Source: a virus
Reading direction: 5' to 3' (one strand)
Virus record (IMG/VR): IMGVR_UViG_3300025133_004861
Span: 1 to 41,379 of that record
Length of the DNA stretch: 41,379 bases
Below the pieces are notes generated by a model. That model made no database searches and was not told the origin of the DNA. It was given only the letters and a program-made list of their open reading frames with translations. Shown here in pieces: positions 1 to 35,985 of this stretch. Each line of letters opens with the position of its first letter. The stretch's first letter is position 1. A program made the translations under genes and the position numbers.

Positions 1-1
1 T

Positions 2-544
2 GCTTCTGTTGCAGATTTTTACAATACCAAAACTTATAGGGGAAATCCATTCTTTTCCGAAACAAACACTTACGAGATATTCCAAGAAGGATCAGAAGTC
101 ATCCACATCAACCCAGACTTTAAAAAGTACAAAGGAAAGTTGGATCTCATATTTACCTCCCCGCCGTATTTTAATAGAGAGGCGTATAGCGAAGATGAAA
201 ACCAATCCTATAAAAAGTTCGGATCATCATACGACTCATGGCGCCACGGGTTCTTAGCACCCACGTTAGAAACATGTGCAAAGTATTTAAAGTCTGGAAG
301 ATTTTTGTTATGGAATGTGGCAGATGTTTTAGTTAGCGGAAAATATCTACCAATAGAGCAAGATAGTATTGACATTTTGGAATCATTTGGTATGGTATAT
401 AAGTACAAGTTGAAGATGGGACTGGAAGGAATGCCAGGACAAAATAGAGTGGGTGAAGATGGAAAACCTAAATGTAAGAATTTCTGTCAAGTTGATGATA
501 AATATTTAAAATACGAACCAGTTTTCGTATTCTGGAAACCATGA
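2..544 (+). CDS. DNA methyltransferase (N4-cytosine/N6-adenine type), 5'-truncated by window edge
   Basis: The reading frame is open from the first bases of the window, so the N-terminus is missing; 180 codons are visible. The motif TSPPYF, preceded by the hydrophobic strand LDLIF, is the catalytic motif IV (D/N/S-PP-Y) of amino-methyltransferases. Downstream come a strand-like FLLWNVADV and a closing YEPVFVFWK, which resembles the end of many phage N6/N4 methylases. The SAM-binding FxGxG motif is not visible here and would have to lie upstream if the protein is complete. The likely role is methylation of DNA bases, either for protection from restriction or for regulation. Specificity cannot be inferred. 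The family is recognised with good confidence, the exact subclass is not. Confidence 0.8.
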   Translation, partial: ASVADFYNTKTYRGNPFFSETNTYEIFQEGSEVIHINPDFKKYKGKLDLIFTSPPYFNREAYSEDENQSYKKFGSSYDSWRHGFLAPTLETCAKYLKSGRFLLWNVADVLVSGKYLPIEQDSIDILESFGMVYKYKLKMGLEGMPGQNRVGEDGKPKCKNFCQVDDKYLKYEPVFVFWKP

Positions 545-559
545 AAAAGGAAAATAAAA

Positions 560-2014
560 ATGGCATGTAAATGTGGAAAAAATAAAGATTGTAAATGCGG
601 AAAGAGTGAACTTCTTTATATCATGAACCCCCGTTGTGGTTGGTGTACAAAATCTGATCCAGTAGTTGAAGAACTCATCAAGGATGGTTATAAAATCACA
701 ACTCTTGATGTTCAGAACGAGGAAGATAGAGACAAAGCAAATAGTATTAAAGAGAAGCATAATGTTCAATGCGGAACTCCGTTCTTTATCGATGCTTCTA
801 ATGGAAATAGTGTATGTGGGTTTAGGGAGAAGGATATATTAGAGAAGTGGGCAAATGGTGAGGAGATTCCTGCTCCCCCGAAGAGATCTCCAGTAGATAA
901 CAACCCACAACAACAAAAACAACCACCAATTCAGTTGATGAAGTTTGAATATATTTGGTTGGATGGTGGAGAAACCAAGAGAATTAGAAGTAAAGTTAGA
1001 TACATTGAAGTAAACACGGCAATGCTTCAATCACCAAATCATCTAATTAAGATGGCACCAGAATGGTCTTTTGATGGTTCTAGTACAAACCAAACAATTG
1101 ATAATATCAGTGATCGTATTTTAAAACCAGTGAAGATTGTTGCAAATACTATCGAAAGGGCAAGAACTCCTTCTTGGATTGTTTTGTGTGAAGTATATGA
1201 CAATGAAGGAAATCCCGATCCATCAAACACTAGGCATAAATTAATTGAAAATATTAAGAATTCATATAATCCAAAAACACTAAATGAAACTCAATTTGCT
1301 ATTGAGCAAGAATATGTTATTTTTGATGCTATGAATCATAAACCACTGGGATGGGATCAATATGGATCAGATCCTCCGCCACAGGGTAATTATTATTGTG
1401 GTACTGGTTCGGATGTAGCACAAGGTCGTGATTTAGCAGAATCACATGCCATGGCATGTAACAATGCAGGTGTTGTTTTATATGGAACCAATGCAGAGGT
1501 TATGCTTTCACAATGGGAATATCAAACAACACCTAAAAATGCAATTGATTCTTCTGATGATCTTTGGATAAGTCGTTTTATTCTACAAAGATTAGCAGAA
1601 AGAATGAATCTGTATATATCATACGATCCAAAACCAGTTCAGGGTGATTGGAATGGTTCTGGCGCTCATATTAATTTCTCAACAAAAGAAATGAGAGAAA
1701 ATGGAAATATGGTTATTATGAATCTATTGTGTGCCAATTTAAAGAGTACACACGAAGACGCATTAAAGGTTTATGGTGTTGGTAATGATAGAAGATTAAC
1801 CGGAGAACACGAAACATCAAGTGCATCTGAATTTACTTGGGGTGAAATGGACAGAAGTTGTTCTATTAGAATTCCAGTTCATACTGTCAATAATAATGGA
1901 AAGGGATATTTAGAAGACAGAAGACCTTCTTCTAATATGGATCCATATGAAGCATTAGATTATATTCTAAATAGTGTAGCGAATATAACGGAAGAAGTTT
2001 TGGAATTGGTGTGA
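560..2014 (+). CDS. Glutaredoxin-like domain fused to type II glutamine synthetase
   Basis: A 484-residue two-domain protein. Residues about 17-105 look like a thioredoxin-fold redox domain, with C26-G-W-C29 as the active site and a T73-P74 cis-proline motif. A short Cys cluster (C3, C5, C11, C13) precedes it and a Pro/Gln-rich linker (about 104-125) follows. Residues about 126-484 are a full eukaryotic-type GSII: YIWLDGG (131-137), WSFDGSS (169-175), E249-Q-E251, NAEVM and QWEYQ (311-322), GDWNGSGAH with H370, RRLTGEHET (411-419), the R432-R437 stretch, and E452-DRR. All the usual metal, glutamate and ATP ligands appear present. The GS domain would make glutamine from glutamate, ammonia and ATP. 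The redox domain might regulate it or act separately. I infer an auxiliary metabolic gene that supports nitrogen or nucleotide supply during infection. The fusion looks genuine, since no stop or internal start site splits the domains. Confidence 0.93.
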   Translation: MACKCGKNKDCKCGKSELLYIMNPRCGWCTKSDPVVEELIKDGYKITTLDVQNEEDRDKANSIKEKHNVQCGTPFFIDASNGNSVCGFREKDILEKWANGEEIPAPPKRSPVDNNPQQQKQPPIQLMKFEYIWLDGGETKRIRSKVRYIEVNTAMLQSPNHLIKMAPEWSFDGSSTNQTIDNISDRILKPVKIVANTIERARTPSWIVLCEVYDNEGNPDPSNTRHKLIENIKNSYNPKTLNETQFAIEQEYVIFDAMNHKPLGWDQYGSDPPPQGNYYCGTGSDVAQGRDLAESHAMACNNAGVVLYGTNAEVMLSQWEYQTTPKNAIDSSDDLWISRFILQRLAERMNLYISYDPKPVQGDWNGSGAHINFSTKEMRENGNMVIMNLLCANLKSTHEDALKVYGVGNDRRLTGEHETSSASEFTWGEMDRSCSIRIPVHTVNNNGKGYLEDRRPSSNMDPYEALDYILNSVANITEEVLELV

Positions 2015-2021
2015 GTAAATT

Positions 2022-2360
2022 GTGGCAAAAATAAAAGAAAACATTTCTGGACTTAGTAAAGTTTCAAATCTTTCATATGAGAAATACTTGAAATCAGCAC
2101 TTGGTATAATTTCACCCCATCTGTCTATTAGGGTCTATAAGGTAGGTCCCAAAAAGGATTATCCTATTTTTGAGAGGGGAAGGGATATCCGGGTTAAGAT
2201 ATTTTGGAAAACTGAAGAAAAGTATGAATTTTTGGTTGAGAAGTTATTTTTTTATCAAAGCAATACTAATAAAGAAGACAGAAATCATATGAGAAGATGG
2301 GCAGATGATAAAATACAAATGATAAAAGACGCAATGATAACAGGAAAGAAGAATGTATAA
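2022..2360 (+). CDS. Hypothetical protein, 112 aa
   Basis: I do not recognise this family. The protein is small, basic and soluble-looking, with no membrane segment or signal peptide. It starts with GTG, seven bases after the upstream stop, and its end overlaps the start of the next gene by eight bases, which suggests translational coupling. The middle alternates charged and hydrophobic residues in a beta-like pattern (RVKIFW, YEFLVEKLFF) and the C-terminus is a charged helix. It is accepted as a gene because it fills the space between two convincing genes in a tightly packed co-directional run. Function is unknown. Confidence 0.7.
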   Translation: MAKIKENISGLSKVSNLSYEKYLKSALGIISPHLSIRVYKVGPKKDYPIFERGRDIRVKIFWKTEEKYEFLVEKLFFYQSNTNKEDRNHMRRWADDKIQMIKDAMITGKKNV

Positions 2361-2664
2361 TTTCGTCGGTACATTTGAGATTAAAAATTCTCAAGGAAAA
2401 CCTATTGTTTACAATAAAGGTGATGTTGTTGAGAAAGAAGGAAGAAAATATATTGCATCTAGAAGGGTTGAAGGTATGTCTCCCGAACATGGGGAAAAGG
2501 CAGGCTGGAAGAAATTGGACGAAAATAGAATGGAATCATTTTCCTATTCAATTTCTCCGCCAGAAAAATCTGTACATGGTGATGAATGGATCGACAGTGA
2601 TTCAGGAAAATTATATAGGTATATAAAAAATGATAATGGGATTTCACAATGGGTGGAATTTTAG
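2353..2664 (+). CDS. Small protein with carbohydrate-binding-like and fibre-C-terminal-like modules
   Basis: A 103-residue protein made of two short modules. The first (about residues 17-55) has the spacing GDVVEKEGRKYIAS then GWKKL, reminiscent of small chitin/carbohydrate-binding modules (V..G..Y.A....P....W). The second (about 72-103) reads GDEWIDSDSGKLYRY and closes with QWVEF. It closely resembles the last 30 residues of the collagen-like fibre encoded at 27671-28723. These modules suggest a virion surface or fibre-associated accessory protein, but its place among early replication genes is odd. Its start overlaps the upstream gene. That it is a gene is fairly secure; the function is inference. 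Confidence 0.75.
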   Translation: MYNFVGTFEIKNSQGKPIVYNKGDVVEKEGRKYIASRRVEGMSPEHGEKAGWKKLDENRMESFSYSISPPEKSVHGDEWIDSDSGKLYRYIKNDNGISQWVEF

Positions 2665-2668
2665 AATA

Positions 2669-2674
2669 GAGAGG
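2669..2674 (+). promoter_or_regulatory. Unusually close Shine-Dalgarno of the RNase H gene
   Basis: GAGAGG lies one base before the TTG that must start the RNase H gene, because an in-frame stop sits at 2667-2669 and the family alignment needs the first residues. This spacing is shorter than usual. Together with the TTG codon it suggests weak or coupled initiation. Confidence 0.4.
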
Positions 2675-2675
2675 T

Positions 2676-3530
2676 TTGAAAATTATTTTACTTGATAATA
2701 ATCAATTAGTAATTGCTAGTTTGTTTCAATCGTTAAAGATGGGTTCCGAAATAAACAAAGATGTGATACGACATCTTGTTCTTAACACATACAGAATATA
2801 CAGAAATAAATTCCATTCCGAATATGGGGAATTGGTTATTTGTCATGATGGTGGTATGTGCTGGAGAAAGGATATTTTCTCAAACTATAAAGCAAACAGA
2901 TCCAAAAAAAGGAAGAACTCTGATTTGAATTGGGATGAGATACATCAGATAATGGATGATATCTACCAAGAAATAAAAGAAAATTTCCCATATAAGAATA
3001 TTAAAATAAAAGGCACAGAAGCAGATGATATCATTGCAATCCTGTGCAAAGAATATTATTCTAAAGAAAAACTTATGATTGTTTCTAGCGATAAAGATTT
3101 CAAACAGTTGCAAAAATATTCAAATGTTTTTCAGTTCAGTCCCCTAACAAAAAAGCATATTGTTTGCGAAGAACCCGATACATTTTTGGTTGAGCATATA
3201 ATAAAAGGAGATGCATCAGATGGTATTCCAAATATTCTTTCTGATGATGATACCTTTGTGGTTGAAGGGAAAAGACAAAAATCTTGTGGAAAGTTAAAGA
3301 TAGAAGGGTATAGAGTCGCTTATGAGATGGGTGAAATGTACGACCACAACATCCAAAAGAATTGGATCCGAAATGAGAAAATGATTAATTTTGAATACAT
3401 TCCAGAAAATATTAGAAAATCTATCATAGAAGAATACGAAAAGGAAATAACAGGAAGCAGAAATGGTCTTCTTGATTATTTTATAAACAATAAACTTAAA
3501 CAATTAATTTCACATATAGAGGAGTTTTAG
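2676..3530 (+). CDS. rnh: RNase H (T4 Rnh-like 5'-3' exonuclease)
   Basis: A 284-residue member of the FEN-1/T4 RNase H family, which removes RNA primers and flaps from Okazaki fragments during phage replication. The N-terminus (LLDNNQ, D7) matches the first metal-ligand strand of T4 Rnh. Further on come WRKDIFSNYKANR, the acidic GTEADDI, the strongly diagnostic SSDKDFKQL and SPLTKKH segments, and GDASDGIPNI, which corresponds to the T4 GDKKDN ligand region. The C-terminus ends in IEEF, like T4 (INEF). It starts with TTG; an in-frame stop just upstream leaves no earlier choice. It lies directly upstream of a small gene and gp45, as part of the replication module. Confidence 0.93.
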   Translation: MKIILLDNNQLVIASLFQSLKMGSEINKDVIRHLVLNTYRIYRNKFHSEYGELVICHDGGMCWRKDIFSNYKANRSKKRKNSDLNWDEIHQIMDDIYQEIKENFPYKNIKIKGTEADDIIAILCKEYYSKEKLMIVSSDKDFKQLQKYSNVFQFSPLTKKHIVCEEPDTFLVEHIIKGDASDGIPNILSDDDTFVVEGKRQKSCGKLKIEGYRVAYEMGEMYDHNIQKNWIRNEKMINFEYIPENIRKSIIEEYEKEITGSRNGLLDYFINNKLKQLISHIEEF

Positions 3531-3533
3531 ATT

Positions 3534-3731
3534 GTGAACGACACAAATAGAGAGTATAATAATACAGAAGGAGATAACAAAAATGAACCACGACAGCGTA
3601 TTCAAACCAGCAGTATGAGAAAACAAAAGAGAAAAAAAAGAAGAAATATAGATAAAAAAAATCTAAATGATCTTTTGAATGGTGAAGTGGATCCTGATTT
3701 ATACGATGATCTTCACGGTGAAAATTGGTGA
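3534..3731 (+). CDS. Small basic protein, 65 aa
   Basis: Not recognised. A GAGGAG Shine-Dalgarno sequence at 3519-3524 sits nine bases before the GTG start, which supports translation. The protein has three zones: a polar Asn/Glu-rich N-terminus, a strongly basic centre (RKQKRKKRR), and an acidic C-terminus ending in LHGENW. The basic centre suggests nucleic-acid or protein binding. The position between RNase H and the sliding clamp suggests an accessory replication protein, which is inference only. Confidence 0.65.
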   Translation: MNDTNREYNNTEGDNKNEPRQRIQTSSMRKQKRKKRRNIDKKNLNDLLNGEVDPDLYDDLHGENW

Positions 3732-3750
3732 TACCAAAAGGAATTATATT

Positions 3751-4452
3751 ATGACAACTAAAGTTGCAGCAGTTACTAAAATATCAAAAACAACACTAAA
3801 TGTTCTAAAGAATTTTTCAACAATCAATTCAAATATCTTGGTAAGACCAGGCAGTGTTTTGAAAACAATTTCTCCAGTAAAAAATGTTATGGCAGAATGT
3901 GTTGTATCAGAAGATTTTGATGTTGAATTTGGTATTTGGGACTTGCATAAATTTTTAGGTACAGTTTCTTTGTTTACTGATCCTGATTTTGAATTCAATG
4001 AGAAATATGTACTTATTAAAGATGATTCTGGAAAATCAGAAGTCAAGTATTACTATTCTGAACCAAGATTATTGACTACTGTAAACAAAAACATAGAGAT
4101 GCCTGATCCTGTTGTGGTGTTTGATCTAACAGAATCGCATTTTACTGAATTGCAAAGAGCCTCTTCTGTTTTACAATTACCTGATTTGGTTCTTCGGAGT
4201 GATGGAAACTCTCTTGAACTTTCGGTGGTGGATAAATCTGATCCTAGTAGCAATTATTATTCAATAGAAGTTGGACAATTACCGCATGATGATCACGATT
4301 TTGAGTTTTATTTTAAAGTGGAAAATTTAAAAATGATATCTGGGAATTATGAAGTTTCTATCAGTGATAGATTCATTAGTAATTTCAAGAAGGATAATCA
4401 AGATCTTAATTATTGGATTGCTTTAGAATCAGATTCTAAATACAACGGGTGA
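3751..4452 (+). CDS. 45: DNA polymerase sliding clamp gp45
   Basis: A 233-residue protein, close to the 228 of T4 gp45, the trimeric clamp that tethers the polymerase and activates late transcription. The hallmark N-terminal pattern (TLNVLKNFSTINSNILVRPGSVLKTIS) and the central IWDLHKFLGTVSLF and later SDRFISNF segments match the gp45 family. The start is placed at the ATG preceded by AAGGA about nine bases upstream. A longer frame reaches back to 3679, but this would overlap the small basic gene without a better ribosome site. It is followed, unusually, by nucleotide-sugar genes before the clamp-loader gene. Confidence 0.92.
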   Translation: MTTKVAAVTKISKTTLNVLKNFSTINSNILVRPGSVLKTISPVKNVMAECVVSEDFDVEFGIWDLHKFLGTVSLFTDPDFEFNEKYVLIKDDSGKSEVKYYYSEPRLLTTVNKNIEMPDPVVVFDLTESHFTELQRASSVLQLPDLVLRSDGNSLELSVVDKSDPSSNYYSIEVGQLPHDDHDFEFYFKVENLKMISGNYEVSISDRFISNFKKDNQDLNYWIALESDSKYNG

Positions 4453-4455
4453 TAA

Positions 4456-5355
4456 ATGAATACATTAGTGACTGGTGGAAGAGGACTTGTTGGTTCTTCT
4501 ATAGACTCTGAATTTAAACCGACAAGATATGACGTAGATTTAATGAATTTAGATTCTGTCGTGAATTATATTACGGAGAATCAAATTGATTCTATTATTC
4601 ATTGTGCTGCGAAGGTTGGTGGTATCAAAGCCAACTCGGAACATCTTGGGGAATTCTACTACGAGAACATGGTGATGAACACCAACGTTCTTGAAGCAGC
4701 GAGGGTTGCAGGTGTAAAGAAGGTTGTGTCATTTTTATCAACTTGTGTGTTTCCAGACGATGCAATTCATCCACTCACTTCGTGTCAGATTCATCTTGGA
4801 GAACCCCATCCCTCTAATTATGCATATGCTTACGCGAAGAGAATGTTAGAGGTTCAAAGTCGAGCATATCGGGACCAGTACGGATGCAATTTTGTCACAA
4901 TAATACCTTGTAACATCTACGGTCCACATGATAATTACAATTTGGATTCTGGACATGTGATTCCCTCTTTAATTCATAAGTGTTATATAGCAAAACAGAA
5001 CAACACAGATTTTGAAATATGGGGGACAGGAAAACCTTATCGTGAATTCATTTACTCAAAGGATGTTGGTAATATTACACAATGGGTGTTGGGGAATTAT
5101 GATGATCCTGAACCATTAATCATTTCTCCAGACGAAGAGATTAATATTGCAACAATTGCACAAGAGATTGCATGGAGAATGGAATTTGAAGGTAATATTA
5201 TATTTAATCAACGAATGGATGGACAGTTAAGAAAACCGTCAAATAACATGACACTAAAAGGTCTTCTTCCTGATTATAAATTTGTTCCTATTGAAATGGG
5301 TTTACAGAAAAGTATAGATTGGTTTATTGAAAATTACGAGGACGCAAGAAAATGA
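4456..5355 (+). CDS. fcl: GDP-L-fucose synthase (GDP-4-keto-6-deoxymannose epimerase/reductase)
   Basis: A 299-residue extended short-chain dehydrogenase. Visible features are the NADPH-binding TGGRGLVGS (6-14), CAAKVGGIKAN (50-60), the S-T-C catalytic segment LSTCVFP (94-100), Y124-x3-K128, and NIYGPHDN followed by HVIPSLIHKC, all specific to the GDP-fucose synthase branch. It converts the product of the neighbouring dehydratase into GDP-L-fucose using NADPH. Its 3' end overlaps gmd by four bases (ATGA), so the two are probably co-translated. The order fcl-gmd is the reverse of E. coli gmd-fcl. The pair sits between the clamp and clamp-loader genes, an unusual insertion point. Confidence 0.93.
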   Translation: MNTLVTGGRGLVGSSIDSEFKPTRYDVDLMNLDSVVNYITENQIDSIIHCAAKVGGIKANSEHLGEFYYENMVMNTNVLEAARVAGVKKVVSFLSTCVFPDDAIHPLTSCQIHLGEPHPSNYAYAYAKRMLEVQSRAYRDQYGCNFVTIIPCNIYGPHDNYNLDSGHVIPSLIHKCYIAKQNNTDFEIWGTGKPYREFIYSKDVGNITQWVLGNYDDPEPLIISPDEEINIATIAQEIAWRMEFEGNIIFNQRMDGQLRKPSNNMTLKGLLPDYKFVPIEMGLQKSIDWFIENYEDARK

Positions 5356-6356
5356 AAAAAGCACTGATCACAGGAATCAATGGCCAAGATGGGTCATACC
5401 TATCAGAGTTTCTTTTGGAGAAGGGATATGAGGTTCATGGTATTCTCAAGAGAAATTCGGTGGCAGAAAATCAAACAGCAAGACTTGATTCTGTATTTGA
5501 TAAATTACATTTGTATTATGGTGATTTGACTGATTTATCATCACTGATAAGTATTATACAAAAAGTTGAACCAGACGAAGTATACAATTTAGCGGCGCAA
5601 TCACACGTTCGTATCAGTTTTGATATTCCAATCTATACTGCTACTACCACTGGACTTGGTGTTCTGAATGTTCTTGAAGCATGTCGCCTTGTTTGTCCAG
5701 ATGCTAGAATTTATCAAGCATCTTCTTCTGAAATGTTTGGTAATTGTATTGATGATGATGGGTTTCAAAGAGAAACTACACCGATGCGTCCCGTGAGTCC
5801 TTATGGTTGTGCTAAGGTGTTTGCTTATAACATTGCAAGAAATTATCGTCATTCTTATGACATGTTTATATCAAATGGTATTTTATTCAACCACGAATCG
5901 CCTCGAAGAGGTTCTAATTTTGTGACGAGTAAAGTAGTCAAAGGTGCATGTGCAATCAAGATGGGTGAGCAAAAAGAATTAGCAATGGGAAACCTTGACG
6001 CAAGCCGTGATTGGGGTCACGCGAAAGATTATGTTGAGGGAATGTGGATGATTCTTCAACACACTCATGCAGATGATTTTACCTGTGCAACTGGAATCTC
6101 TCATACTGTTCGTGATCTTTGTAGATATACGTTTGATACTCTTGATATGAATTATGAAGATTATGTTGTTCTTGACGAAAAGTATCTTCGTCCAGAAGAA
6201 TTAGAAGATTTAAAAGGTGATTCTACAAAACTCCGAGAAAAGTTGGGCTGGAAGCCTAAATATTCTTTTGAGACTATGATCAAAGAAATGATTGACGAAG
6301 AACTTCGGAACACTTATAATGTGTCTTTGGATTTTTGGAGAACATTATATGAATGA
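5352..6356 (+). CDS. gmd: GDP-mannose 4,6-dehydratase
   Basis: A 334-residue short-chain dehydrogenase with the family signatures TGINGQDGSYL (7-17), NLAAQSHV (79-86), SSSEMFG (124-130), Y151-x3-K155, NGILFNHESPRRG and the SRDWGHAKDYV box. Each matches bacterial Gmd almost residue for residue. It makes GDP-4-keto-6-deoxy-D-mannose from host GDP-mannose, the precursor both for GDP-fucose (Fcl, upstream) and, plausibly, for GDP-perosamine (the aminotransferase at 19120). The last eight bases overlap the start of gene 44, so clamp-loader translation appears physically coupled to this sugar gene. Confidence 0.95.
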   Translation: MKKALITGINGQDGSYLSEFLLEKGYEVHGILKRNSVAENQTARLDSVFDKLHLYYGDLTDLSSLISIIQKVEPDEVYNLAAQSHVRISFDIPIYTATTTGLGVLNVLEACRLVCPDARIYQASSSEMFGNCIDDDGFQRETTPMRPVSPYGCAKVFAYNIARNYRHSYDMFISNGILFNHESPRRGSNFVTSKVVKGACAIKMGEQKELAMGNLDASRDWGHAKDYVEGMWMILQHTHADDFTCATGISHTVRDLCRYTFDTLDMNYEDYVVLDEKYLRPEELEDLKGDSTKLREKLGWKPKYSFETMIKEMIDEELRNTYNVSLDFWRTLYE

Positions 6357-7293
6357 TGCGAAAGAATATCTTTGGGTAGAGAAGTATCGTCCAAGGATTA
6401 TAAATGAATGCATTTTACCAAAATCCATAAAAACTATGTTTGTGGATATGGTGAAAAATGGGAATTTACAAAATCTACTTTTGTCTGGTGGTGCAGGTTG
6501 TGGTAAAACCACAATCGCAAAGGCTCTTTGTAATGAATTGGACGCAGAGTATATTATGATTAATTGTTCAGAAGATGGAAACATCGATACTCTACGAACA
6601 AGGATTCGTAATTTCGCAAGCACAGTTTCTATGTCTGGACAAAAGAAGGTTGTCATTTTAGATGAGTTTGATTATTCAAACGCTCAATCTACACAACCTG
6701 CATTGCGGGGGTTCATTGAGGAATTTAGTGAAAATTGTAGGTTTATTCTTACTTGTAATTTTAAAAACAGAATCATAGAACCTCTACATTCAAGATGTAC
6801 CGTGATAGAATTTAAAATTCCAAGCAAAGAAAAACCTTCTCTTGCAACAGAACTTCTTGGAAGAGTGAGTGATATATTAAATTCTGAGGAAGTTTCGTTT
6901 GAAGAGCCAGTTTTGGCAGAATTAATAAATAAACATTTTCCTGATTTCAGAAGGATTATCAATGAACTTCAAAGATATTCTGTTGCAGGAACAATTGATG
7001 TTGGCATTTTAACCCAAATTGGTGAGATTCAAATTAAAGATCTTATCAGTTTTATGAAGTCTAAGGATTTTTCATCGGTTAGAAAATGGGCAGTTTCCAA
7101 CATAGACAACTCACCGTCCGAATTGTTCAGGAAGATATATGACAATTTATATGAATATATGGAATCGTCTTCCATACCCCAAGGAATCCTAATTTTAGGG
7201 GAATATCAATACAAGTCTGCATTTGTAGCAGATCTTGAAATAAATTTAGTGGCATGTTTAGTAGAACTTATGATGGAGTGTGAATTTAAATGA
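6349..7293 (+). CDS. 44: Clamp loader large subunit gp44 (AAA+ ATPase)
   Basis: A 314-residue protein against 319 in T4. It has WVEKYRP (9-15) at the start, Walker A GGAGCGKT (47-54), Walker B LDEFD (104-108) and the SRC arginine-finger motif (148-150). It forms a complex with gp62 that opens and loads the gp45 clamp at primer-template junctions using ATP. The ATG chosen overlaps the gmd stop and places the conserved YLWVEKYRP near the N-terminus; a longer in-frame reading from 6292 would be buried in gmd. The gene ends with a four-base overlap with the GroES-like gene. Confidence 0.94.
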   Translation: MNDAKEYLWVEKYRPRIINECILPKSIKTMFVDMVKNGNLQNLLLSGGAGCGKTTIAKALCNELDAEYIMINCSEDGNIDTLRTRIRNFASTVSMSGQKKVVILDEFDYSNAQSTQPALRGFIEEFSENCRFILTCNFKNRIIEPLHSRCTVIEFKIPSKEKPSLATELLGRVSDILNSEEVSFEEPVLAELINKHFPDFRRIINELQRYSVAGTIDVGILTQIGEIQIKDLISFMKSKDFSSVRKWAVSNIDNSPSELFRKIYDNLYEYMESSSIPQGILILGEYQYKSAFVADLEINLVACLVELMMECEFK

Positions 7294-7595
7294 GCAAAGT
7301 ATTAGCACAAGGTAATTATTTAATTTTAGAAAAAGTGGATTATGAAAAGGAAGAAATTACAGAGAGTGGTATCATTGTTAAAATGAGCCAAGTTTTGGAC
7401 AGTTCCTTTGCAGAATCAAAGATATTGTCAATCGGACAAGGAATTCCTGATTCTGATGGTAATGTCCCACCGGTAAATTATAATGTAGGTGATTCTGTAC
7501 TTTATGATGCTCGTTCTAGAATTGGCACTCATGCAGATTTTGATGTGATTCGCAGAGAAGATGTAGTTGCAGTGGTTCATGATGAAACTGACTGA
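7290..7595 (+). CDS. groES: GroES-like co-chaperonin
   Basis: A 101-residue protein with the chaperonin-10 pattern: the N-terminal strand GNYLILEKV, then TESGIIV (the mobile-loop neighbourhood), KILSIGQGI, a proline-containing turn, YNVGDSVLYDA, and the C-terminal REDVVAVV. GroES-type proteins cap GroEL rings. T4 uses gp31 in this role to fold its capsid protein with the host GroEL, so a similar role is inferred here. The length is typical of a single Cpn10 domain. It sits between gp44 and gp62, overlapping both neighbours (ATGA-type at the 5' end, 14 bases at the 3' end). Confidence 0.82.
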   Translation: MSKVLAQGNYLILEKVDYEKEEITESGIIVKMSQVLDSSFAESKILSIGQGIPDSDGNVPPVNYNVGDSVLYDARSRIGTHADFDVIRREDVVAVVHDETD

Positions 7596-27670: not shown

Positions 27671-28723
27671 ATGGGTAGAATACGACGATTTATAGATTAT
27701 TCTCAAAACGATGAGATATATGAGGATGAGAATGTTGTAGAAGAAACAACAGATTCTGTACCCACGCATAAACCAATTTCTACTGAAAATAAAGAAATCA
27801 GAGGACCAAGGGGGTATATAGGACATCCCGGTGAAGTGGGGGATCAAGGATCACCAGGCATTCCCGGCCAAATTGGTGAGCAAGGTCCAATAGGACTTCA
27901 GGGTGAAGTTGGATCCCAAGGTGAACAGGGGTTACAAGGTGAAGTTGGACCCCAAGGAACACAAGGTGAACAGGGGTTACAAGGTGAAGTTGGACCCCAA
28001 GGAACACAAGGTGAACAGGGGTTACAAGGTGAAGTTGGACCCCAAGGAACACAAGGTGAAATTGGACCCCAAGGAACACAAGGTGAAATTGGACCCCAAG
28101 GAACACAAGGTGAAATTGGACCCCAAGGAACACAAGGTGAAAGAGGGCAGAAAGGTGTAAAGGGCGAAAGGGGAAATTTAGGAACAGAAGGAAAAAGAGG
28201 ACAGAAAGGAATAAAGGGAGATAGAGGTATTCCCGGTAAGGTCGGACCACCCGGAATCGTGGGTAAAGATGGAAAAGATGGTGAAGATGGTAAAGCGGGA
28301 GAGATTGGTGACGATGGAATTGTAGTTGCACAATTTCCATTAAAATATGATAAAGACAGAAAGAAAATAAGTGTAGATACAAAGGTTCTACAGAAAATGC
28401 TTAGTGTTCCTCCAGCACAAGCACAAAATATAGATTGGGTTGCACTTGCAGGTGGTGGTGCTGTTGGTGTACGAGATAGAACTGAATCTAATGATATTTA
28501 CTTATTGAAATCGGTTTCAGACCTAATCTTTAAAGGTAGTGGAGTTGCCTTAGAAAGAAAAGGAAAAGATATAGAATTAACATTCACGGACACAGGAACA
28601 TTTACAGAAGCAGGAAAATCTGGCCAACCGACGAACCCATCAAACGGTGATAGATGGCACGATGTGGATACGGGAAAGTTATTTACATATTCTGATGCTC
28701 AATCTTCGTGGATAGAATTTTGA
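27671..28723 (+). CDS. Collagen-like fibre protein
   Basis: A 350-residue protein with about 57 uninterrupted Gly-X-Y triplets (residues about 44-217), framed by a charged N-terminus and a C-terminal globular region. The triplet zone first has perfect repeats ([15 protein letters not shown] x3, then GEIGPQGTQ x3), next a charged GERGQKG/GKRGQKG zone, then [14 protein letters not shown]. Collagen triplets form trimeric helices and occur in phage tail fibres. The last 30 residues read [16 protein letters not shown] and SSWIEF, a module shared with the protein at 2353. No Shine-Dalgarno is seen, but the ATG immediately follows a late-promoter-like motif. Late structural or host-binding role is inferred. 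Confidence 0.9.
27920..28054 (+). repeat. Three perfect 45-base tandem repeats in the collagen-like gene
   Basis: Three identical 45-base units, each encoding [15 protein letters not shown], at 27920, 27965 and 28010. Perfect identity including wobble bases means recent expansion or gene conversion, and unit loss or gain would keep the reading frame. Confidence 0.97.
28055..28135 (+). repeat. Three perfect 27-base tandem repeats in the collagen-like gene
   Basis: Three identical 27-base units, each encoding GEIGPQGTQ, at 28055, 28082 and 28109, directly after the 45-base repeats and derived from the end of that unit with one codon change. The array as a whole is likely length-variable. Confidence 0.97.
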
Positions 28724-28747: not shown

Positions 28748-30619
28748 ATGTCTATTAGTTTTCCAACATCACCAACATTAAATCAGACTTACACTTACAT
28801 AGACAAAATATGGAAGTGGAATGGTGTTGCATGGGAAAGAAGTGCTGCTACTGAAACTGGTAATGTAGAGGGACTTACTGGTGAGATTGCATATTATTAT
28901 GAAAAAGGTTCCAACATTCAGGGTGCTACTGCCTTTTTCTATGCTGGAGATAAAATTGGAATTGGAACCTCTGGTCCAACAGAAACTTTAGATGTTCGTG
29001 GGGGTATTACTGCAAGTGGAAGATTGTATGCTGCCGGCGGAATAACAAGTGGTGATGACATAACTGTAGGTGATACAATTATAGAAACTGGTGGCGTCTT
29101 TAAGTCTGCGAGTGGTATTAGTCTCAAAACTGATGGTAATATAACAGGAGTGATTGATGGTAACACAGAATTATTCATGTCTGGAGCAGAGTCAATATTC
29201 AATTATGATACTTCTTCTGGCCACAATTTTAAAGTAAGAGGTCCTTCCGGCTTATATCCTATTTTTGCAAATGATTCTGGTGTTGGAATCAATGTCAATA
29301 CCCAAGGCCCCCAAGAACTTTTCCATGTTGCAGGAGGAATGTCTGCTGGTGGTGCAACATTTGATGAAGTAACTGTTCATGGTGGGATCACTGCTTCTGG
29401 TGCATTATATGCTGCTCAAGGAATAACCAGTGGTGGCCACATCGTGTTACAAAATAATGATTACATCAGTAACCCAAGTGCCTACAATGTCAGGATGATG
29501 CCAGAGGGAACAAGTGCCACTGATTACGGACTCAACTTTGACTTCAGTAGTTGGGGATATGGAGTCAAGATTGATACAGTAAAGGCTTCTGATGATTCTG
29601 GTGGGTCTAATGTTCTGTTTATGTCTGACTTAGGAGTCAACAATGATCGAGATATCAACATGGGAAGTAGTTCACATTCCAAATTCAGACATTGCACCAC
29701 AGGGAATAACACACTTCAAGTAGGAGTGCAGCCTGGTGATGTAACTGACGATTGTGCTGGTGCCTTTGCACTAATACATTCCAGTCATATAGGAACGTCG
29801 TTTAGATGCCCTGGCGTTACTCACGCCAATCCAAATTTTTATGTGTATACCGGTCAAAGCAATGATGCAGACAAGTATATCAGAATTGAACACGATGCGA
29901 CCGATGCTAACATCGTGACAGGTGCAGGTGACATTTCTCTGCAACCCTCAAGTGGAGTTGTGGGTGTTAGTGGTGGAAGATTGTATGCTGATCAAGGAAT
30001 AACCAGTGGTGGTGATATTCATCTTGATGGTGATATTATCATGACAGATCAAGGTTACATCAAAGTTGAAGGTGACACCGAATCAATTTATATGAATGCA
30101 AGTGGTGGACAAATCAAATTAGGTGCAACCGCCATTGATATCAAACAAAAACTTCGACATGCTGAAGATACTGATACTTACTTAGAATTTACAACTAACA
30201 ATATTTCCTTACAAGCAGGCGGTACAGATGTTCTCAATATAACATCAACTGGGGCAAACTTTGCGGATACTGATGTTGTAAGACCAAACCTTAAAGATTA
30301 TTCTGAAACTGTAAACGCAATTGGAACTATAACTGATGATAGAACCATCGCACATGATGACGGCAATGTTCAGACTGTAACTGTTGGTGGTGATTGCGAA
30401 ATTGACTTTGACACTTGGCCCGCATCTGGTAAATCAGGAACAGTTACTCTTATTGTTACAAACGGTGGCGCACACACATTAACATGGCATTCCGCAGTAA
30501 AATGGCCGGGTGATAATGCTCCTGCACTCACAGCATCTGGTGTGGACATTCTTTCGTTTATGTCAATCGATGCAGGAACAACCGTTTATGGATTTGTTGG
30601 TGGGATCAACTTCTCGTGA
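28748..30619 (+). CDS. Tail-fibre-like structural protein
   Basis: A 623-residue, Gly/Ser/Thr/Asp-rich, cysteine-poor protein with beta-structure composition. It begins SISFPTSPTLNQTYTY then WKWNGVAWERS, a small module frequent at the start of phage fibre and baseplate-associated proteins. Three internal repeats read GGITASGRLYAAGGITSGDDI (about residue 85), GGITASGALYAAQGITSGGHI (about 212) and SGGRLYADQGITSGGDI (about 408). The C-terminal third resembles a beta-rich tip (TVTVGGDCEIDF, SGTVTLIVTNGGAHTLTW). A trimeric fibre or spike is the natural reading. Its stop overlaps the GTG of the following Gly-rich gene. Confidence 0.82.
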   Translation: MSISFPTSPTLNQTYTYIDKIWKWNGVAWERSAATETGNVEGLTGEIAYYYEKGSNIQGATAFFYAGDKIGIGTSGPTETLDVRGGITASGRLYAAGGITSGDDITVGDTIIETGGVFKSASGISLKTDGNITGVIDGNTELFMSGAESIFNYDTSSGHNFKVRGPSGLYPIFANDSGVGINVNTQGPQELFHVAGGMSAGGATFDEVTVHGGITASGALYAAQGITSGGHIVLQNNDYISNPSAYNVRMMPEGTSATDYGLNFDFSSWGYGVKIDTVKASDDSGGSNVLFMSDLGVNNDRDINMGSSSHSKFRHCTTGNNTLQVGVQPGDVTDDCAGAFALIHSSHIGTSFRCPGVTHANPNFYVYTGQSNDADKYIRIEHDATDANIVTGAGDISLQPSSGVVGVSGGRLYADQGITSGGDIHLDGDIIMTDQGYIKVEGDTESIYMNASGGQIKLGATAIDIKQKLRHAEDTDTYLEFTTNNISLQAGGTDVLNITSTGANFADTDVVRPNLKDYSETVNAIGTITDDRTIAHDDGNVQTVTVGGDCEIDFDTWPASGKSGTVTLIVTNGGAHTLTWHSAVKWPGDNAPALTASGVDILSFMSIDAGTTVYGFVGGINFS

Positions 30620-31326
30620 GTTTAGGTGCAGGCAGAGCAGCAAGCACAAGAGAGTATCAACTAATTGATACAGGAACCATCACTTCTACAGGAGGTCAAC
30701 TTTATGACATTCCCGCAGGCACACGCTATCTTGAAATTGAAATGTGGGGTGCAGGCGGTGGTGGTGGTGGAACTAAAGCAGTAGCCTCAGGCAGAGGATA
30801 CACTTACAGGGCAGGCGGCGGTGGCGGTGGTGGAGCATACCTCAAGAAAACTTATTATGGTGATGCGGACATGCAAGAAGGTGATAAATTGGCAGTCTCT
30901 GTCGGCGCAGGTGGGGGTGGAGGTGCTGACAATACAGCAGGTTCAGCAGGTGGAGATACAACACTCAGCATACACTCACGGGGATTGTCTACCATTACAA
31001 CATTTAGTAGTGTAGTCGCAGGTGGCGGTGGTGGTGGAGAAAGTGAGAGCAACTCTGCGGGAGGTGCAGCAGGAGCGGCAACCAACGGAGACACAAACAC
31101 AAGTGGAAATGCTGGCGGAGACAAGAGTGGGAGCCAAGGCGGTGATGGGGGTGATGGTGCTGATCCAAATGGAGGATCAGGCGGGAACCACGGTTCTCCA
31201 CTTGGCGCAGATTCTGACAACGGAAACTCACCAGGCGGTGGTGGTGGTGGAGCAAACGGCCAGTCAACGAATCCCGCTTCAGGAAGTGGAGCAGACGGAA
31301 AAGTTATTGTAAAGGCGTATGGATGA
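30616..31326 (+). CDS. Glycine-rich adhesin/tip-like protein
   Basis: A 236-residue protein of which over a third is glycine. It starts with a short beta-domain (IDTGTITSTGGQLYDIPAGTRYLEIEMWGAGGGGGG) matching the glycine-rich domain seen at the ends of many phage fibres and continues as a series of GGGGGG stretches separated by variable loops. T-even gp38 adhesins also use polyglycine sandwiches with exposed variable loops, so a receptor-binding tip placed after its fibre gene is plausible. GTG start in a GTGA overlap. No transmembrane or catalytic feature. It is richer in GC than its neighbours, as its glycine codons demand. Confidence 0.75.
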   Translation: MSLGAGRAASTREYQLIDTGTITSTGGQLYDIPAGTRYLEIEMWGAGGGGGGTKAVASGRGYTYRAGGGGGGGAYLKKTYYGDADMQEGDKLAVSVGAGGGGGADNTAGSAGGDTTLSIHSRGLSTITTFSSVVAGGGGGGESESNSAGGAAGAATNGDTNTSGNAGGDKSGSQGGDGGDGADPNGGSGGNHGSPLGADSDNGNSPGGGGGGANGQSTNPASGSGADGKVIVKAYG

Positions 31327-33417: not shown

Positions 33418-35985
33418 ATGACATTCTATACTAATGTAACACAACGAGGAAAATATATTCTCTATCGTGGTATCGATGAGGATGGTAACTGTTTTCAAAG
33501 ACAAGAACAATTCCATCCTACTATGTTTATTCCTGCAAAGGAAAAGAGCAAGTTCAGAACACTCGATGGTCTTTATGTAGAACCAATCAAACCGGGAAAT
33601 ATTCCAGAGACTAGAGAATTCATTAACCAATATCAGGGTGTTGGGGGTTTTGATATATTTGGTAATAGTGATTTTGTTTATCAATTTATCGGTAGTAATT
33701 ATAAAGGAGAAGTTGATTATGACTTTTCTAAAATTAAAGTTGCAAATATTGACATCGAATGTGAATCTGAACATGGATTTCCTCGTCCAGACGATGCAGA
33801 CGAGAAAATTAATGCAATCACCGTAGATTTTAATGGATGGATTTATGTGTTTGGTTTAGGAAAATTCAATCTTGCAGAGTCACCATATGACGGAAAACTG
33901 AGACAGTTTCAGTTTGAAACGGAAGAAGAGTTGCTTGAGTCTTTTCTTTCTACATGGGAGTTTGAATCACCTGATATTGTAACAGGTTGGAATGTTCGTT
34001 TTTTTGATATTCCATATCTTGTCAATCGTATTACTAAGGTTCTTGGAAAGACATCAGCAAAACGTCTATCACCTTGGAAGTTTCTTAAAGAGAGAAACGT
34101 CAAGAAGATGAATCGTGAGAATCAAACTTATGAGATTTCTGGTGTTTCTACTCTTGATTATTATGAACTTTACCAAACATTCACATATGTCAACCAAGAA
34201 TCATACCGTCTTGATCATATTGCATTTGTGGAGTTGGGTGAAAATAAATTATCATATGATGAGTATGATAGTATGTCAACATTTTACAAAAAAGACTTTC
34301 AGAAGTTTATAGAATATAATGTCAAGGATGTTGAACTCATCAGCAAACTTGAAGATAAGATGAAGTTGTTAGAACTTGCAGTATCACTTGCATATTCTGC
34401 CAAAGTAAATTACATGGATGTGTTTGGACAGGTTCGAACTTGGGACTCTATCATCTACCATTATCTCATGGAACACAACATTGTCATTCCACCCAAATCA
34501 GTAGGAAAGAAAGATTCTCAATATGCAGGTGCATATGTGAAAGAACCAATTGTTGGGATGCATGATTGGGTTGTGTCGTTTGACCTAAACTCACTTTACC
34601 CACACCTTATTATGCAGTATAATATTAGTCCAGAAACAAAAATTGATATGGATCAGCAGTATGGAATTACACCAAATTCAATTATGAGTGGTAGTGATGT
34701 TGGAAGGGAAACACTAGAAAGATGTAAGAAAAATAATTATTCAATTGCAGCAAACGGAACCTGTTACACAAAAGAACACCAAGGATTTCTTCCTGCACTC
34801 ATGGGAAAACTTTACAAAGATCGTAAGATGTATAAGAAGAAGATGATTGAGTGTCAGAAGAAGAGACAGGAAGTTGTAAAGTCCAATACAGTAGCAATGG
34901 GCAAAGGATTGATGTGTCAGAAACTTGATAAGGAGATTGCGAAGTATAACAACTTCCAGTTGGTTCGTAAGATTCAGTTGAACTCTGCTTATGGTGCAAT
35001 TGGTAATGAATGGTTTCGTTATTATGATGTTGCAATGGCAGAAGCAATTACTTTATCAGGACAATTGAGCATCCGATGGATTGCAGATAAACTTAATAAA
35101 TTTTTGAATAAAACAATTGGAACGGAGGATTATGATTATGTTGTCGCTAGTGATACAGATTCTGTCTATTTGCGTCTTGGGAATCTTGTGGACAAAGTGG
35201 TTCCCGCTAAAACCGAGCAGGAGGTGGTCGAATTCCTCAACAAATCCTCAGAAGAAATCATCCTCCCATTCATCAAAGAGAAATACGACGAACTCGCAGA
35301 ATTGATGAACGCATATGAAAATAAGATGGTGATGGACAGAGAGTGCATTGCAGACAAGGGGGTATGGACTGCAAAGAAACGATACATGATGCGTGTGCAT
35401 GATTCGGAAGGTGTTCGTTATGATCCACCGAAGCAGAAGATCATGGGTATTGAAACGACTCGCAGTTCTACACCACAAGTTGTTCGTGATTCATTGAAGG
35501 AAGCAATTAAGTTAATTCTTACGACAGACGAGGATACAGTGATTGAATTCATTGAAGGGTTTAGAGAGAAGTTTAAGACGTTTACACCAGAAGATATTGC
35601 ATTCCCCCGAGGGGTAAATGGGATGGATAAGTATTCTGATATGAGAAGCATTTATAAAAAATCAACACCAATAGCAGTGAAGGGAAGTTTAATTTACAAT
35701 TATTACATAGATAAATTTGGATTGGGTAAGAAGTATCGTAGGATTATTGATGGGGATAAGATTAAGTTTTTACATCTAATAAAACCAAATCCTCTTGGGG
35801 GGGTTGCAGGACAGGATCATATAATTGCATTCCCGAACAGTCTTCCTAGAGAGTTTAATCTTGGAGAATTTGTTGATTATGACGTTCAGTTTGAAAAATC
35901 ATTCCTTGAACCAATCAATCGTATCCTAGAAAAGATCGGATGGAATTGGAAACATATCAACACACTGGAAGGATTTTTTGCATGA
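33418..35985 (+). CDS. 43: DNA polymerase gp43 (family B)
   Basis: An 855-residue replicative polymerase (T4: 898). Exonuclease sites: D112-x-E114 at the same residue numbers as T4, NVRFFDIPY with D197, and YNVKDVE with D304. Polymerase sites: DLNSLYP (389-395, motif A), KIQLNSAYG (518-526, motif B) and SDTDS (578-582, motif C). The thumb ends in a short clamp-binding-like tail (HINTLEGFFA). It copies the phage genome with gp45 and gp44/62 encoded upstream. No intron or inserted gene interrupts it, unlike some relatives. A stretch near 35190-35310 has more C-ending codons than the rest. Confidence 0.97.
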   Translation: MTFYTNVTQRGKYILYRGIDEDGNCFQRQEQFHPTMFIPAKEKSKFRTLDGLYVEPIKPGNIPETREFINQYQGVGGFDIFGNSDFVYQFIGSNYKGEVDYDFSKIKVANIDIECESEHGFPRPDDADEKINAITVDFNGWIYVFGLGKFNLAESPYDGKLRQFQFETEEELLESFLSTWEFESPDIVTGWNVRFFDIPYLVNRITKVLGKTSAKRLSPWKFLKERNVKKMNRENQTYEISGVSTLDYYELYQTFTYVNQESYRLDHIAFVELGENKLSYDEYDSMSTFYKKDFQKFIEYNVKDVELISKLEDKMKLLELAVSLAYSAKVNYMDVFGQVRTWDSIIYHYLMEHNIVIPPKSVGKKDSQYAGAYVKEPIVGMHDWVVSFDLNSLYPHLIMQYNISPETKIDMDQQYGITPNSIMSGSDVGRETLERCKKNNYSIAANGTCYTKEHQGFLPALMGKLYKDRKMYKKKMIECQKKRQEVVKSNTVAMGKGLMCQKLDKEIAKYNNFQLVRKIQLNSAYGAIGNEWFRYYDVAMAEAITLSGQLSIRWIADKLNKFLNKTIGTEDYDYVVASDTDSVYLRLGNLVDKVVPAKTEQEVVEFLNKSSEEIILPFIKEKYDELAELMNAYENKMVMDRECIADKGVWTAKKRYMMRVHDSEGVRYDPPKQKIMGIETTRSSTPQVVRDSLKEAIKLILTTDEDTVIEFIEGFREKFKTFTPEDIAFPRGVNGMDKYSDMRSIYKKSTPIAVKGSLIYNYYIDKFGLGKKYRRIIDGDKIKFLHLIKPNPLGGVAGQDHIIAFPNSLPREFNLGEFVDYDVQFEKSFLEPINRILEKIGWNWKHINTLEGFFA

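Follow-up and report, generated by a model that had tools for sequence, protein, structure and literature searches.

What a phage gains from a glutamine synthetase (GS) joined in one frame to a redox domain is the question raised by the gene at positions 560..2014 of IMG/VR record IMGVR_UViG_3300025133_004861. The whole stretch of DNA that was analysed, 41,379 nt, is called the window here. The open reading frame starts with ATG, encodes 484 aa, is free of internal stops, and is preceded at 545-549 by an AAGGA that, on direct reading, resembles a Shine-Dalgarno (SD) sequence. The complete fused gene encodes a redox module, a linker, and a type II GS (GSII); the gene, all features within it, and its neighbours up to position 4452 are on the plus strand. 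The upstream neighbour is a DNA methylase gene, represented by its 3' portion (1..544) and kept in the fused relatives and in most of the same-locus unfused relatives. The conserved downstream context (2022..4452) comprises two small ORFs, a T4-type RNase H (2676-3530), and the gp45 sliding clamp (3679-4452), and most contigs with the fusion have the order methylase, fusion, two small genes, RNase H, gp45, and gp44. The original prediction of a T4-like phage was borne out by RNase H, gp45, gp44, DNA polymerase B, UvsX/RecA, and a DnaB-type helicase. With 58% identity, the clamp loader matches its counterparts in Melnitz (an OM43 phage) and in Mosig and HTVC008M (Pelagibacter phages), which suggests, but does not prove, a streamlined marine host for the window phage. 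The region upstream of gp45 in HTVC008M and Melnitz is occupied by other genes, with no GS annotation there. A search for a glutamine riboswitch near the fused gene returned none.

Several further genes were seen in the window. A GDP-mannose dehydratase gene and a fucose-synthase-like gene lie at 4456-6356, and a Cpn10 (GroES-like) co-chaperonin gene (7290-7595) immediately follows gp44. Between gp44 and the DNA polymerase, glycosyltransferase genes and sugar-nucleotide genes make up a long island (7300-33416) that includes GT10, GT2, exostosin GT47, a DegT aminotransferase, and an epimerase. One ORF (27671-28723) carries collagen triple-helix repeats; the next (28748-30619) resembles a tail fibre only weakly and in part, and after it comes a Gly-rich ORF (30616-31326). 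An RT-6 RNA match inside the DNA polymerase gene (34248-34313) scored 28.7 bits against a cut-off of 46.7 and is probably due to chance.

The predicted fusion of a redox domain to GSII in a T4-like phage was upheld, as the same fusion turns up on a further 27 IMG/VR contigs, drawn from 22 metagenomes. Informative pairs gave dN/dS values of about 0.07-0.16 for the module and 0.01-0.21 for GS, most pairs falling at about 0.1-0.2, indicating purifying selection on both halves. In nine of the 26 fused genes, start codons are lacking around the GS boundary, and GS must there be translated as part of the fusion. Translation of GS on its own, starting internally at the TTG/ATG of codons 127/128 in the window, was considered and rejected, as no SD-like sequence was found there by eye.

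The GS half spans aa 127-484 (938..2011). Using a profile search, aa ~127-474 were matched to NF041605 (GlnII) with an E value of 1.2e-98, and solved GSII structures matched this half with E values of about 1e-85. The NF041605 score of 330.3 bits lies below the curated cut-off of 500 for the cellular GlnII equivalog, and in the GS tree the phage GS clade branches apart from the cellular GSII that were sampled. An AlphaFold2 monomer model of the fusion had a mean pLDDT of 92.8 with a low-confidence linker, and its GS half aligned to Streptomyces coelicolor GSII (4bax) with a TM-score of 0.93 by target length and an rmsd of 1.9. The phage protein has the same fold as 4bax and maize GS1a (2d3a), shows about 42% identity in the fold search to the Streptomyces enzyme, and differs from cellular GSII in its added N-terminal redox module and linker. 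The claim of intact active-site motifs held, with all 16 catalytic and substrate positions that were checked against maize GS1a identical in the window. These are D172, S175, and N311; E249 and E251 in EQE (1304..1312), corresponding to maize E129/E131; E313 and E320 in NAEVMLSQWEYQ (1490..1525), corresponding to maize E192/E199; N365, G366, and H370 in NGSGAHINFS (1652..1681); R412 and E418 in RLTGEHET (1793..1816); and R432 and R437 with E452 and R454 of EDRRP (1853..1927). Conserved residues for metal, ammonium, glutamate, and phosphate are present, and the active-site positions are invariant across 106 GSII sequences with one exception, N311, replaced by H in seven fused rows. From the active site seen in the sequence we infer GS activity and decamer assembly; the C-terminal two-thirds of the protein is a GSII with an intact active site that would form a ring-shaped decamer and, during infection, convert glutamate and ammonia to glutamine.

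The redox module (aa 1-107; 560..880) is followed by the Pro/Gln-rich linker (881..937), which was found as predicted and has low model confidence. The modelled elements of the module are strands at 18-22, 46-50, 75-78, and 84-86 and helices at 27-41, 54-66, and 91-98. The modelled fold is thioredoxin-like and most similar to B. subtilis thioredoxin (9bxs_E; 79 residues aligned at rmsd 1.8, Z 10.1), with the CGWC motif opening the helix at 27-41 and P74 preceding the strand at 75-78. Profile matches to thioredoxins had E values of about 0.003-1, and the PF00085 (thioredoxin) score of 16.0 bits is under the gathering cut-off of 23.5, short of membership. The Pfam glutaredoxin profile PF00462 did not match the window, and its best score among the relatives was 19.4 bits against a cut-off of 22.9. 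The domain had been called glutaredoxin-like; a redox domain with CGWC is present, but given the thioredoxin fold match and the lack of a glutaredoxin match, the term should read thioredoxin-fold. Compared with B. subtilis TrxA (9bxs/2gzy), the phage module shares the CxxC, a predicted cis-Pro loop, and 27% identity, and it differs in a shorter N-terminus, two extra invariant cysteines, and a Pro-rich C-terminal tail with passengers.

The predicted CGWC and cis-Pro are both in place, at aa 26-29 (635..646) and in CGTP at aa 71-74 (770..781), where the extra cysteine C71 stands beside the predicted cis-proline P74. The CGWC cysteines, C71, and the fourth cysteine C86 (815..817) are invariant in 62 aligned modules, the third CGWC position being W, F, or Y. 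The CxxC and both extra cysteines are kept across 80 module proteins down to ~47% identity, with a C71-C86 spacing of 15 in all 80 and a C29-C71 spacing of 42 in 77. The family is apparently an uncharacterised phage redox domain. A Cys-x-Cys cluster before CGWC had also been pointed out; it is present in the window as CKCGKNKDCKC (aa 3-13; 566..598) but in just 15 of 26 fused proteins and in 1 of 54 non-GS module proteins, and is thus not a general part of the module. Its enrichment in GS-fused forms could reflect some GS-specific role.

The module family was found at 98 or more IMG/VR loci. The module precedes a helical 'WQEAKQ' tail in 13 proteins and Pro-rich 'W-Y-W-HLPN' tails in 41, the latter ending in a coiled coil or a Lys-rich stretch. 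At annotated loci the 'W-Y-W-HLPN' group lies directly upstream of genes for a gp32-type SSB, UvsX, exonuclease, and helicase. No GSII was detected in the phage records with non-GS passengers (records of up to 157 kb, possibly incomplete). With the module placed ahead of other passengers in phages lacking a detected GSII, it is a portable N-terminal domain, and the sequences indicate that uncultured marine T4-like phages reuse it on at least three passenger types, GS among them. Loci L056-L092 (e.g., L081:5917-6717 and L062:5941-6687) encode a large family of proteins in which the module is joined to several copies of a 'PRPK..PP.PP...W..EY..W..EN.HLPNLQP' unit, with a coiled coil at the C-terminus; their genes adjoin gp32, uvsX, and gp41 where annotated. 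In L015/L026, L024, L036, L041, L044, L045, L052, and L053, from phages without detected GSII, the module is followed by a short helical domain that ends in 'P-T-x-x-I-x-x-E-A-x-K-I-x-x-F-V'.

GSII itself also occurs without the module. Thirteen phages of the same GS clade encode an unfused GSII of ~353-381 aa, ten of them at the same locus and three (L101, L102, and L104) with the methylase ~1.2 kb downstream of GS. Whole-record six-frame searches of the unfused-GSII phage records, which may be incomplete, found no module elsewhere. Fused and unfused sequences are intermixed in the GS tree, with five label changes, at least three of which are forced by well-supported branches; the window sits in an all-fused clade of 21. 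Same-locus GSII without the module and the mixed tree together imply repeated gain or loss of the fusion. Resolution of the module tree is poor, and a single origin of the GS-fused modules (p-AU 0.42) was neither shown nor rejected. Median dS among five close relatives was 0.49 for the methylase, 0.64 for the module, 1.58 for GS, 1.55 for RNase H, and 0.26 for gp45. The jump in divergence at the linker in these five genomes indicates a mosaic gene that probably recombined at the linker, differing constraint on synonymous sites being an alternative cause. In the same-locus unfused GSII of L100, L107, L112, L114, and L118 the sequence deviates from HETS beside the catalytic glutamate; CETQ replaces HETS in L100 and L112, and other active-site residues are conserved.

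Related unfused phage GSII are stand-alone proteins of about 335-380 aa. With relatives of GSII encoded at over 550 viral loci, the enzyme is itself widespread among phages, and the fused form represents a variant inside a single T4-like clade. Viral GS auxiliary genes have been described from ETSP viromes (reviewed in PMC9083009), Antarctic viruses (PMC10721903), and moraphages (PMC12619734). The available portions of these three sources have in common with the present gene a phage-encoded GS, with presumed glutamine supply, and do not mention a redox fusion. Among the 80 nearest cellular GSII, none of the 75 that could be parsed has a CxxC N-terminal extension. The fusion was not found on plasmids, a pattern-based search of cellular genome contigs gave no confirmed match to the module, and a search of 370 genomes of two phyla, run without a positive control genome, found no module. 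The proposed check for the fusion in cellular organisms thus returned none in the nearest cellular GSII, plasmids, and genomes searched. The INPHARED annotated phage records contain no module match; GSII matches in annotated phage records were limited to four huge uncultured phages, and the match stops short of the module. No description of a redox-GS fusion was found in open-licence papers, and the expectation that the fusion was undescribed apparently holds for that literature and the annotated phage records searched. Phage GS has already been reported; the fusion and the module family appear to be new.

The reading that we favour, with modest confidence, is that GSII is tethered to a portable thiol-exchange module acting on a partner or locally, and not to a GS-specific regulator. 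The protein would be bifunctional. Its N-terminal third is, by sequence and model, a portable thioredoxin-fold module with a CxxC, two further invariant cysteines, and a flexible Pro/Gln linker; it is not dedicated to GS, as phages recombine it onto at least three passenger types and can lose it from GS. Most likely, the module would exchange thiols and disulfides with one partner shared by all the passengers, or would reduce whatever lies close by, and it would bring GS to the common partner or keep GS reduced. An on/off switch built on the cysteines of GS itself would be less likely than a role as partner-directed or local reductase. As a tentative and somewhat doubtful reading, the portable four-cysteine module, C-x2-C-x41-CGTP-x11-C, recombined through Pro-rich linkers onto unrelated passengers, may be a common thiol adaptor that during infection brings each of them to a shared host or phage partner.

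It is rather unlikely that the module reads the redox state of the cell and toggles or protects GS by disulfide exchange with GS cysteines. The halves are covalently tethered and both under purifying selection, the N-terminal CxC cluster occurs more often with GS than with other passengers, and PMC8219043 (citing Choi et al. 1999) reports that plastid GS2, also a GSII, is redox-modulated via two cysteines, with thiol-responsive activity; this modulation in trans implies that GSII can respond to thiols. For GS2, the same text reports thioredoxin acting in trans and the two cysteines in the plastid isoform only, whereas the phage module is in cis and no column of the GS alignment holds a fused-specific cysteine, an absence that weakens the case for a dedicated intramolecular disulfide switch. 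Cysteines C210, C280, C300, and C391 of GS occur at similar frequency in unfused phage GSII and in cellular GSII, and S420 is the only position separating fused from unfused GS. As the module also serves non-GS passengers and same-locus relatives manage without it, the suggested regulation of GS by disulfide exchange gained no support.

Two independent enzymes, with GS supplying glutamine for purine and CTP synthesis and the module reducing ribonucleotide reductase (RNR) or similar, are improbable. The fused gene does lie among replication genes, and the best module match is a B. subtilis thioredoxin modelled with RNR; however, the large RNR subunit was unmatched in two long, possibly incomplete fused-phage records (G017, 123 kb; G018, 85 kb), and one phage with the module on another tail encodes RNR together with an ordinary thioredoxin. 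Thioredoxin domains are known solubility partners, and the fusion is dispensable at the locus, as would suit a module that acts passively as a tag for solubility or assembly and has no redox chemistry; the invariance of the CxxC and the two extra cysteines over the 80 module proteins makes such a tag very unlikely. An assembly or sequencing join in the linker, in favour of which nothing was found, is ruled out by the further contigs, where the halves have the same order, and so is a chance occurrence.

The tethering of GSII to a portable thiol-exchange module thus remains the preferred reading. Glutamine is a central nitrogen donor in the cell. The host genes glnA, gltBD, and amt are upregulated in two pelagiphage infections (PMC12753301), which fits a glutamine demand during infection. 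Phage control of nitrogen assimilation, with the fused gene as an auxiliary metabolic gene, is plausible, as had been proposed. Close relatives with and without the module at the same locus make its effect testable in natural pairs. In infected cells, a phage GS physically coupled to a redox module would tie nitrogen assimilation to thiol chemistry.
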